DNA of 64,000 nt from Verrucomicrobia bacterium S94. Its GTDB lineage: Bacteria; Verrucomicrobiota; Kiritimatiellia; Kiritimatiellales; Pontiellaceae. The first letter of the stretch is position 1, and each line of letters opens with the position of its first letter. The DNA is taken from NCBI GenBank assembly GCA_004299845.1, contig CP036201.1:496001-560000 (forward strand), in the 5' to 3' direction. Below, in pieces: positions 30,877 to 35,334 of the stretch. Under the pieces are notes generated by a model. The model saw only the letters and a program-made list of their open reading frames with translations, ran no database searches and had not been told where the DNA came from. Made by a program: the position numbers and the translations under genes.

Positions 30877-31667
30877 ATGAAATGGACGGCCTCAAAAATC
30901 AGGGCTCTTAAGGGCGAACAGAAAATTGCCATGGTCACGGCCTACGACGCACTGACCGGTGCGCTGGCGGATGATGCAGGAATTCCGGCCATTCTGGTGG
31001 GGGATTCGCTGAGCATGACAGTGCTGGGCTATGAAACCACACTGCCGGTAAGTATGGAGGAAATGCTTCATCACACGGTTGCGGTCTCCCGCGGGGTGCA
31101 GAATGCATTGGTGATTGCGGATATGCCGTTTATGTCGTATCAGCCGTCGGTGGCCATCGGACTGGAAAATGCCGGACGGTTTCTGAAGGAGGCGCAGGCC
31201 GATGCGGTGAAGGTTGAGGGGGGGCTGTCCGTGGAGAGCTTATTGAGTCGCTGGTGAAAAACGGAATACCGGTCTTGGGGCATATCGGGCTCACGCCGCA
31301 GAGCATCAAAGAGATGGGCGGCTACAGAGTGCAGGGGAAAACCTCTGAACAGGCCCGGCAGCTGATGGATGATGCCATGGCGGTGGAACAGGCAGGGGCG
31401 TTTGCGCTGGTGCTCGAATGTGTGCCTTCGGATCTCGGAACCATGATTTCGCAGGCTCTGTCCATACCTACCATTGGCATTGGTGCCGGTGCCGGGTGCG
31501 ATGGCCAGGTGCTGGTTTTTACCGATCTGCTGGGCATGAGTGGAAAACCGGTGCCGAAGTTTGTGAAAAAATACGCTCATCTGAACGGTATTATTTCGGA
31601 AGCGCTGGCGAATTATAAAGACGAGGTTGAAAAGGGCATTTTTCCTGATGATGAACACGCCTATTAG
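30877..31667 (+). CDS. panB: 3-methyl-2-oxobutanoate hydroxymethyltransferase PanB, frameshifted in this sequence
   Basis: PanB makes ketopantoate from 2-oxoisovalerate for pantothenate and CoA. The first frame ([13 protein letters not shown] to DAVKVEGG) contains the substrate and metal region [20 protein letters not shown]. It runs to a stop at 31257. The second frame resumes with [19 protein letters not shown] and continues to [18 protein letters not shown]. Adding one G to the seven-G run at 31218-31224 gives [16 protein letters not shown] and one 263-residue protein of normal length. As written the gene is broken; a sequencing error is the simplest explanation. panC lies downstream beyond two inserted genes. 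Confidence 0.93.
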
Positions 31668-31677
31668 TCAATCGGAA

Positions 31678-32324
31678 ATGTATGCGGTTCTGACAGGAGA
31701 TATTGTGGGGTCCTCTGCGCTTTCTCCGGAGGAGCACCGGCAGGTTGTACGAACCGTTAAGGCGGTGTCTGAGGTGTTTCCGGATGCGGTGATCGGCAGT
31801 GTCGACTTTTTCAGCGGGGACAGTTGGCAGCTGCTGGTTTCCGACTGCAGCAGATCGCTGGCGGTGGCGTTGTATGTGCGTGCCGGACTGAAAAGGGAAA
31901 AACGCCTCGCGGTTGACAGCCGGATTTCCATTGCCTGGGGGAAGTGGATATGGCGCAGGTGGATATGGAGAGGATGTCGGAATCCACCGGCGATCTTTTT
32001 ACAGCGTCCGGCCGTGCTCTGCAGGAACTCAGAAAAAACACGTTGATGTGTTTTTCTCTTCTGAATAATGAATGTCTGACGCGATCTATCGGCTGTGCTG
32101 TCGGTCTGCTGGATGTACTGGTCCGGCAGTGGAGCCGGGAACAGGCGCGTGCGGTGGCGGAATCGCTGAAAGGCAGCACTCAAACGGAAATCGCTTCGGC
32201 ATTCGGGGTGGGCCAGTCATCCATTAATAAGTCATTACAGGCCGCACATTGGGCTGAAATTTCATCAGCGCTGGGTTCCATCGGAAGCATAGCGGCTTTG
32301 GTTGCGGAAAATAATCACCCATAA
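31678..32324 (+). CDS. satD: SatD family protein, frameshifted in this sequence
   Basis: A SatD-family protein of about 215 residues once one G is added to the run at 31937-31941 (SIAWG then EVDMAQVDME). The N-terminal part MYAVLTGDIVGSSALSPEEH is characteristic of the family. The C-terminus has a helix-turn-helix-like stretch (STQTEIASAFGVGQSSINKSLQAAHW), so it may bind DNA. Two palindromes at 32314-32363 begin inside its last codons and precede the DUF3307 gene, so they are natural operator candidates. SatD was first noted in the Streptococcus mutans acid-tolerance sat operon; its function is unknown. The start could also be ATG 31651. Confidence 0.8.
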
Positions 32325-32331
32325 GGGTGAT
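32314..32331. promoter_or_regulatory. Palindrome 1 (ATCACCC-N4-GGGTGAT), candidate operator
   Basis: Perfect seven-base arms separated by ATAA, overlapping the satD stop codon. It shares the ATCACC/GGTGAT half-sites with a second palindrome whose centre lies 29 bases downstream, about three helical turns. Likely a repressor site upstream of the DUF3307 gene. Confidence 0.6.
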
Positions 32332-32339
32332 AAAAGTAT

Positions 32340-32363
32340 ATTATCACCTTAATAGGTGATAAT
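32340..32363. promoter_or_regulatory. Palindrome 2 (ATTATCACCT-N4-AGGTGATAAT), candidate operator
   Basis: Perfect ten-base arms around TAAT, 28 bases before the DUF3307 ATG. There is no T-run, so it is not a terminator. The half-site matches palindrome 1. The upstream gene product SatD has a helix-turn-helix-like C-terminus and could be the binding protein. Confidence 0.65.
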
Positions 32364-32390: not shown

Positions 32391-33092
32391 ATGAAGGAAG
32401 CTGTAATTGTGCTGGTTTCGGCTCATTTTATAGCCGATTTTCTACTTCAGTCGGACGGCCTCCAGCAACGCAAAGACCGGTTTCTGATATTGCTTCTGCA
32501 TGCTGCATGGGTTGCGGTTTCAGGATATCTGCTGTTGCAGCAGTGGTCGGCCTGGATTCCATTTCTGCTGATATTTGTTTTTCATGCTGCAATTGATGGG
32601 ATTAAACGGCGGTTTCAGGATACGGTCCGTGTTTTCTGTCTGGATCAGGCGGCTCACATCATTTCGGTATTTTTCGTAGTCTGGTTTTGCAGAACCGCAG
32701 GGTGGATGCATGGTTTTTCGGGCAAAGGACTGACCTTGATTGTTCTGGTTGCAGGGTTTGCTGTGTGTGTGCCCGGTGCCGGTTTTCTGGTGGGGAAAGT
32801 GGCAGGAAAATTACAGGCCGAAAATGCACTGGCTGAAAAGATTATCGGACTCATAAACGGGGGTAAGCTGATTGGTCAGCTGGAGCGCGCGTTGATATTC
32901 ATGCTGGTTATGATCGGTCAACCGGGCGGAATCGGGTTTCTGGTTGCCGCGAAGTCGATTCTTCGTTTCGGTGAAGCGAAGGATGATCAGAAACTGGCGG
33001 AATATGTGCTGATCGGAACGTTGCTGAGTTTCGGACTGGCCATTGCCGCCTCCACACTAACAAAATATATACTTGAGGATGTCAGTTCATGA
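32391..33092 (+). CDS. DUF3307 family membrane protein
   Basis: A 233-residue polytopic protein. ATG 32391 is chosen for the GGAG seven bases ahead; an upstream TTG lacks one. The N-terminus VLVSAHFIADFLLQSDGLQQRK is the DUF3307 signature, followed by several membrane helices and FHAAIDGIKRRF. The C-terminal half has GLINGGKLIGQLERALIFMLVMIG. Function is unknown. It pairs with satD and stands behind two palindromes. Its stop overlaps the panC ATG by four bases, so panC translation is coupled to it. Confidence 0.88.
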   Translation: MKEAVIVLVSAHFIADFLLQSDGLQQRKDRFLILLLHAAWVAVSGYLLLQQWSAWIPFLLIFVFHAAIDGIKRRFQDTVRVFCLDQAAHIISVFFVVWFCRTAGWMHGFSGKGLTLIVLVAGFAVCVPGAGFLVGKVAGKLQAENALAEKIIGLINGGKLIGQLERALIFMLVMIGQPGGIGFLVAAKSILRFGEAKDDQKLAEYVLIGTLLSFGLAIAASTLTKYILEDVSS

Positions 33093-34630: not shown

Positions 34631-35334
34631 ATGATGAACGCATGGTCTGTCAGTTTTAATGAGCCGGTCCCGTATCAGAAGGGGCTTGATCTTCAACACC
34701 GTTTACTGAAAGCACGGCAGGAAAACCGGATTCCCGATACCGTGCTCCTTCTTCAGCATACCCCGACGGTTACACTGGGTAATCGCGGGCGGGATAATTA
34801 CCTGCTGAAAACCGAAGCTGAATACAAAGAGCTCGGAATTGAACTTTTTCATGTGGAACGCGGCGGCGATGTCACGTTCCACGGTCCGGGGCAGTGGGTC
34901 ATCTATCCGATTCTTTATCTGGGGGGAATGAGGCGGACTCTCACGGTTACCTTTTTAATCTTGAGGAAACCGCTATCCGGACCTTGAGCGATTACGGAGT
35001 AAAGGGTTTCCGGCGCGAGGGAAAGTCCGGGGCCTGGACCGATGCAGGTAAAGTGGCGGCCATTGGGTTTCGGCTTAAAAAGTGGGTTTCTTTTCACGGG
35101 ATGAGTTTTAATGTCAGTAATGATCTGATGGGATTTAATACTATTGTTCCGTGTGGACTGGTCGGAGAGCCGGTGGCCACTCTCAGGACGATTCTCGGGA
35201 AAACCTGTCCCGAAATGCCGGCGGTAGGAAATTCGCTGCTGAACCATTTTTCCGATGTCTGTAATCGTAAACTCGAGCGGTTTAATGCAGGCGATGTGCT
35301 GCCGGCGGAGCTGGCCGAATTAATCAAAAAGTAA
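34631..35334 (+). CDS. lipB: Octanoyltransferase LipB, frameshifted in this sequence
   Basis: LipB moves octanoate from acyl-carrier protein to lipoyl domains. The first frame ends at 34987 and holds [15 protein letters not shown] and [26 protein letters not shown]. The second frame continues [44 protein letters not shown] and NTIVPCGL with the catalytic Cys. Adding one G to the six-G run at 34921-34926 joins them into one 234-residue protein of normal size. All active-site parts are conserved, which argues against an old pseudogene and for a base-calling error. Confidence 0.93.

Follow-up and report, generated by a model that had tools for sequence, protein, structure and literature searches.

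Autoregulated operator arrays are known for toxin-antitoxin operators and for cooperative repressors. The SatD family (PF16264) is named after the sat operon of Streptococcus mutans, and neither a SatD operator nor the array reported here is described in the open-access papers searched. A Tn-seq meta-analysis of S. pyogenes (PMC11323703) reports satD as an accessory gene (178 of 249 genomes) that is yet essential in the strains tested; according to the same study it is the single accessory gene in the top quarter of essentiality scores (PMC11323703). Here we analyze a satD-like gene that is followed by two tandem palindromes and a DUF3307 gene, within a 64,000-nucleotide stretch of the Verrucomicrobia bacterium S94 genome (the window). 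The reading that we arrive at proposes a concrete function for two almost unstudied families, SatD-like and DUF3307; the latter is mentioned in one of the open-access papers searched.

The satD-like locus of the window

The features of the locus are:

31678..32324, + strand: satD-like gene; predicted N-terminal class III cyclase-like domain and C-terminal HTH; split near 31938-31944
32314-32331, no strand assigned: palindrome 1, ATCACCC-ATAA-GGGTGAT, 7-bp perfect arms
32340-32363, no strand assigned: palindrome 2, ATTATCACCT-TAAT-AGGTGATAAT, 10-bp perfect arms
32391..33092, + strand: DUF3307 gene, a predicted helical membrane protein and the presumed target of the array; scores 49.2 bits with PF11750 (cut-off 23)

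As the preliminary description had it, both palindromes have perfect arms and share the half-site ATCACC/GGTGAT, and their centers (32322.5 and 32351.5) are 29 bp apart. This distance amounts to about 2.8 helical turns at 10.5 bp per turn, however, and not to the near three turns that had been suggested. Palindrome 1 does cover the satD stop codon (TAA, 32322-32324, inside 32314-32331), and the DUF3307 start codon follows 27 bp past the end of palindrome 2. Exact matches to ATCACC-N6-GGTGAT occur at these two sites only, in the window as in the whole 4,107,983-bp genome; each of the remaining 17 genomic matches carries one mismatch. A blind scan of the window for similar 6-6-6 palindromes 18-45 bp apart returned one perfect pair, namely palindromes 1 and 2.

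The satD-like gene lies in two frames, 31678-31941 and 31938-32324, each of which aligns with one half of the protein in an intact relative. With the protein of locus L005 (Pontiellaceae bacterium B1224) as query, tblastn gave 74% identity over 31678-31941 in frame 1 and 70% over 31938-32327 in frame 3. Three genes of this one-contig assembly, panB (30877-31664), satD (31678-32324) and lipB (34634-35133), are frame-split and are intact in relatives; the splits are probably homopolymer assembly errors rather than pseudogenes. Seven of 19 phylum homologs match PF16264 at E up to 1 (best 5.5e-10), and a Fusobacterium relative adjoining DUF3307 scores above the cut-off (53.5 bits). The two pieces of the window protein had no match in a PF16264 profile search, and its closest relatives fall below the cut-off (the intact L005 protein with 14.9 bits against 29). 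With the window protein under the cut-off, 'SatD-like' is the safe name; SatD is used below for short.

A SatD structure was modeled with AlphaFold2 on three sequences (pLDDT 64.6) and has a beta-alpha-alpha-beta-beta-alpha-beta N-terminal domain followed by a helical C-terminus. Foldseek ranked class III cyclases in nearly all of its top rows for this model (E from 3.6e-3, probability up to 1.00), and VIA-align gave Z 8-9 to several class III cyclases, with other ferredoxin-like folds interspersed; the best cyclase in a PDB profile search reached E 0.096. Two aspartates presumed to bind metal, D8 and D48, are kept in 26 of the 26 sequences that hold the domain and would correspond to the metal ligands of cyclases. 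The sites of the transition-state Asn and Arg (aligned positions 109 and 113) are variable, and so are not conserved in SatD. Given the predicted cyclase-like fold and the invariant aspartates together with the variable Asn/Arg sites, the modeled N-terminal domain is likely to be a nucleotide-binding sensor, and we do not class it as an active cyclase. The HTH-like C-terminus that had been proposed agrees with predicted helices and with mostly weak profile matches to sigma-70 region 4 and YlxM-like HTH domains. Residues 125-202 gave one VIA-align row to an AlgU-MucA complex (Z 7.8, rmsd 4.5), and other sigma-factor regions were unmatched in the SatD-like proteins of the window's relatives.

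The predicted structure of DUF3307 is all-helical, at low confidence (pLDDT 54.5). DUF3307 genes in loci that lack satD (L098-L105, L107-L110) have short open frames of 131-189 aa and satD-linked ones have longer frames of about 226-306 aa, the extra C-terminal part of which is strongly conserved among the window's relatives. Two SatD and two DUF3307 proteins submitted to PADLOC matched none of its families.

The satD-array-DUF3307 module lies between panB and panC in the window and in three relatives (L005, L006 and L007), and in three other relatives of the window's genus panC follows directly after panB. The module is therefore a cassette.

Spacing and arm letters of the array in other genomes

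The closest relatives carry the window's palindrome in their own satD-DUF3307 pairs: three copies in L005, the third with one mismatch, two in L006 (a Kiritimatiellales MAG) and eight in L007 (a Pontiellaceae MAG). The period in these three is always 29 bp and the first copy lies at the satD stop, as it does, or nearly does, in most related loci. Among the four genomes, window included, the spacers are constant in length and variable in sequence. A tandem-pair search found ATCACC pairs in three of 387 phylum genomes (those of the window, L005 and L007), each between satD and DUF3307. The literal TATCACC motif that was expected beside other satD-DUF3307 pairs is specific to the window's relatives; across the loci the geometry is conserved rather than the letters.

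Homologs of satD were found in 20 of 387 phylum genomes and 16 of 345 class genomes (the sets partly overlap). Most are followed by DUF3307, the usual partner in the loci compared. These satD-DUF3307 loci carry 18-bp palindromes, in two to eight copies with a period of 28-29 bp; the junction arms of other lineages read GCAAGC or GCAACC, ACAACC, ATAACC, ATAGCC or ACAGG. The expectation of similar palindromes beside other pairs therefore proved right, and more broadly than predicted, with 28-29 bp arrays in most pairs. When 28 satD loci were scanned blind for palindrome pairs at distances of 18-45 bp, the spacing was 29 bp in 17 loci, 28 bp in four and 30 bp in one, with no other value; 300 dinucleotide shuffles gave a mean of 0.003 loci with a pair at 29 bp. 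Outside the array region (109,624 bases) the same scan returned two pairs at 28/29 bp, both belonging to a second array in L056. Among loci added after the spacing rule had been seen, L069, L072, L073 and L121 gave 29-bp pairs and L074 a 28-bp pair. The strict blind test is passed by 19 of the 30 loci of the window's phylum, and about 27 of 30 carry the array when weaker copies are counted as well (L024, L056 and L078 at 29 bp; L034 at 29 and 58 and L035 at 28 by autocorrelation; L115 and L116 at 29 and L117 at 28 by eye). By the same criteria L038 and L076 have no array, and that of L031 is weak or doubtful.

The array goes with satD. Copies of satD without a visible DUF3307 still have it (L056, L078), and the palindrome-pair scan found none at 12 DUF3307 loci without satD; DUF3307 was accordingly rejected as the owner of the array. 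Tandem pairs with RCAASC arms occur in nine of 387 phylum genomes, seven at satD loci, including G305, whose array comes after a second copy of the satD 3' end, some 2 kb away from satD. Off-locus RCAASC pairs lie on another contig (G118), in a coding repeat (G190) and in a period-30 repeat (G259). The last consists of ACAAGC/GCTTGT palindromes (L059) near Cas1-like and REP-type transposase-like frames, both labeled by eye. In L078 (G185), GGAACACCGGTGTCAGGCATAGACAATA repeats stand immediately behind the satD array, past the satD stop.

The array is also found on plasmids of other phyla. In a Sphingomonas plasmid record two TCAACC palindromes 28 bp apart lie between satD and DUF3307, downstream of satD. 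In gammaproteobacterial plasmids the array is upstream of satD, and satD and DUF3307 overlap or are within about 40 bp. These are plasmids of Enterobacter (TCAACC arms, 29 bp), Vibrio (three TTAGCC, 28 bp) and Pseudoalteromonas (GTAACC arms, 28 bp), and those of E. coli (pEC34A) and Klebsiella, 3.8-4.4 kb in size, which have one TCAACC site and a degenerate one at 29 bp. Upstream 28/29-bp pairs pass in six of nine plasmid loci (four distinct lineages); shuffles gave a mean of 0.01 and a maximum of 1. Two sites about 29 bp apart were noted by eye in Pseudomonas fragi. Segatella, Salinivibrio and Fusobacterium had no array passing the criteria of the scan; by locus, L081 (Segatella copri) and L129 had none, and L130 had a degenerate one only. 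Plus-strand promoter signals were seen at two arrays: a -35-like TTGACT hexamer lies over the array edge in Enterobacter (L126), and in L127 a match begins inside the array. For L131 and L123 the promoter scans were uninformative, and that of the window's array found no plus-strand promoter.

Some further observations concern the plasmids themselves. The satD-DUF3307 pair makes up a large share of two small ones, L131 (pEC34A, 3770 bp, E. coli) and L128 (4424 bp, Klebsiella), and identical or near-identical SatD occurs in seven plasmid records. A Segatella copri plasmid (L081, about 2600-2760) has three GCCATATTTTTCRATTAA copies upstream of satD. When E. coli complete genomes were searched with the pEC34A module no place covered 80% of the query, and phage-borne SatD turned up neither in two tblastn searches of a phage collection nor in a pattern scan over viral contigs.

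Arm letters vary by lineage (ATCACC, GCAAGC/GCAACC, ACAACC, ATAACC, TCAACC, TTAGCC), and this variation follows two residues at the start of the predicted recognition helix of SatD. Across 22 of 23 loci (L078 was dropped), motif distance tracks recognition-helix distance after control for N-terminal distance (partial Mantel r 0.65, p 0.0001), and the converse test shows no association (r -0.05). Single residues were compared with arm bases in 28 loci. At the position aligned with S181 of L006, Q goes with C at arm base 2 in 18 of 18 loci and non-Q residues in none of 10; at the preceding position, R goes with G at arm base 1 in 12 of 14 and non-R residues in none of 14. Among known HTH proteins, Arg often contacts G. 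Within one genus, L033 and L069 have RQ and GCAAGC arms and L032 has QS with an ATCGG array nearest satD (the one used in the test) and a GCAAGC array behind it. Loci omitted from this test were L031, L038, L081 and L130 (no clear array), L034, L115 and L116 (29-bp direct repeats with unclear arm register), L128 and L131 (base 2 mixed), L078 (no N-terminal part), L124 (a near-copy of L123) and L076, L077 and L129 (unaligned). The counts share ancestry and independent changes are few: the tree holds five independent pairs for the Q/C association over all branches and two over well-supported ones, and the two tested agree, which is not significant by a sign test. An earlier and smaller tree gave a still weaker result.

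The array is evenly spaced and ancient; its spacing is kept across distant bacteria, and its letters change with the predicted DNA-reading helix of SatD. Nature thus provides a set of putative regulator/operator pairs that share one architecture and differ in specificity.

What the array may do

Since the spacing is kept and the letters change with the helix, the array is very probably SatD's switch for DUF3307. We put at about 0.7 the probability that the palindromes of the window are a short version of a SatD operator array controlling DUF3307. Tandem palindromes at constant phase do lie beside the gene of the presumed regulator, as in an operator array. One predicted SatD dimer would sit on each 18-bp palindrome through its C-terminal HTH, and the fixed 28-29 bp period would place neighboring dimers in contact, so that binding would be cooperative. 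The bound array would control transcription of the downstream DUF3307 or, where the genes are close, of the entire satD-DUF3307 operon. SatD would most likely act as a repressor of DUF3307; more speculatively, repression might be lifted once the N-terminal, cyclase-like domain has bound a nucleotide ligand or made one. Points against this reading are the missing plus-strand promoter at the window's array, the small number of independent helix/arm changes, the loci that lack an array and a G.T excess among arm mispairs.

The array could instead act in RNA, as hairpins of the satD-DUF3307 transcript, perhaps bound by SatD or another protein, that steer translation, processing or readthrough of DUF3307. 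Both window palindromes are predicted to fold as stable hairpins (z -4.04) within the presumed transcript and right before the DUF3307 ribosome site, a terminator-like match on the minus strand is scored at each, and the arm mispairs lean to G.T (14 of 28, against 5 C.A/A.C). Palindromes fold by construction, however, and the G.T excess is also obtainable from C-to-T changes on the coding strand. Moreover, a period kept at exactly 28-29 bp while the spacers vary freely suits DNA phasing and not hairpins, the gammaproteobacterial array stands as much as about 130 bp ahead of satD (TTGACT lying over its edge in Enterobacter), and the arm letters track the recognition-helix residues, all of which makes action in RNA unlikely in our view. 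This tracking of the SatD helix also speaks against the array being the site of another, unlinked regulator to which SatD is a mere neighbor. Such a regulator would fit the two palindrome kinds found in single loci (GCAAGC and GCAACC in L026, ATCGG and GCAAGC in L032, ATAACC and ATAGGG in L022), but it is decidedly improbable: the array accompanies satD and not DUF3307, tandem searches place arrays at satD loci only, bar three unrelated places, and counts of single palindromes at other places are mostly close to those of controls, giving no sign of a wide regulon.

We give little credit to a centromere-like or membrane-tethering array, coated by SatD and with DUF3307 anchoring the DNA to the membrane. 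The eight copies in L007, the pairing of a predicted DNA-binding protein with a membrane protein and the occurrence on plasmids would all agree with it, but most phylum loci have only 2-4 sites and the smallest plasmids that carry the module are of the ColE1 type, generally multicopy and without need of a segregation or tethering system. Dispersed REP-like repeats and chance were both rejected, and we find either scarcely credible. The elements are palindromic and repeated, and a period-30 REP/transposase-like array does exist at an unrelated place in G259; against this, the window's genome holds two exact copies, counts in most of 14 genomes are near control, and the observed spacing is approached neither by shuffles nor by the background scan.

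Defense-type neighbors are present at several loci: type I restriction in L026, HmaB-like methylase genes in L073 and L121, a DISARM/Hma-like helicase in L022, HEC-01 genes in L056, and in Sphingomonas a Pycsar effector together with one cyclase and one TIR gene. The neighbors in L027 and the window are of other kinds. In L056 (1-2900) the HEC-01-type candidate defense genes are inserted behind satD, and beyond them comes a duplicate of the 3' end of satD with a second array. We suggest, tentatively and as something that may well prove wrong, that satD-DUF3307 is a mobile addiction or defense-type module. A cyclase-fold repressor on a phased array would restrain a harmful membrane protein and be released by a nucleotide, for example upon phage infection; new specificities would arise by joint change of helix and array, the 28-29 bp staying constant. 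If SatD does restrain a harmful partner, essentiality of satD in S. pyogenes is to be expected, which would explain the puzzle posed by the meta-analysis (PMC11323703) and would suggest a transcription factor with a cyclase fold and a ligand.

Comparison with known systems

The proposed SatD array resembles the autoregulated operator arrays of small HTH regulators in its tandem palindromes, its fixed helical phase and its position beside the regulator and partner genes, and in both cases the operon itself encodes the regulator, a small protein. It differs in that SatD, the presumed regulator, has a cyclase-like domain and in that the array of the window's phylum lies between the genes, not ahead of the operon. 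Class III nucleotide cyclases, among them the Pycsar cCMP/cUMP synthases, have the fold tentatively predicted for the SatD N-terminal domain and share its invariant, presumably metal-binding aspartates; unlike them, SatD lacks conserved Asn/Arg sites, has no PADLOC match and is fused to an HTH. Sigma-70 region 4 and YlxM-like HTH domains, finally, are similar to the C-terminal helices of SatD, with profile matches that are mostly weak, whereas the SatD domain is distinguished from them by its fusion to a cyclase-like domain.
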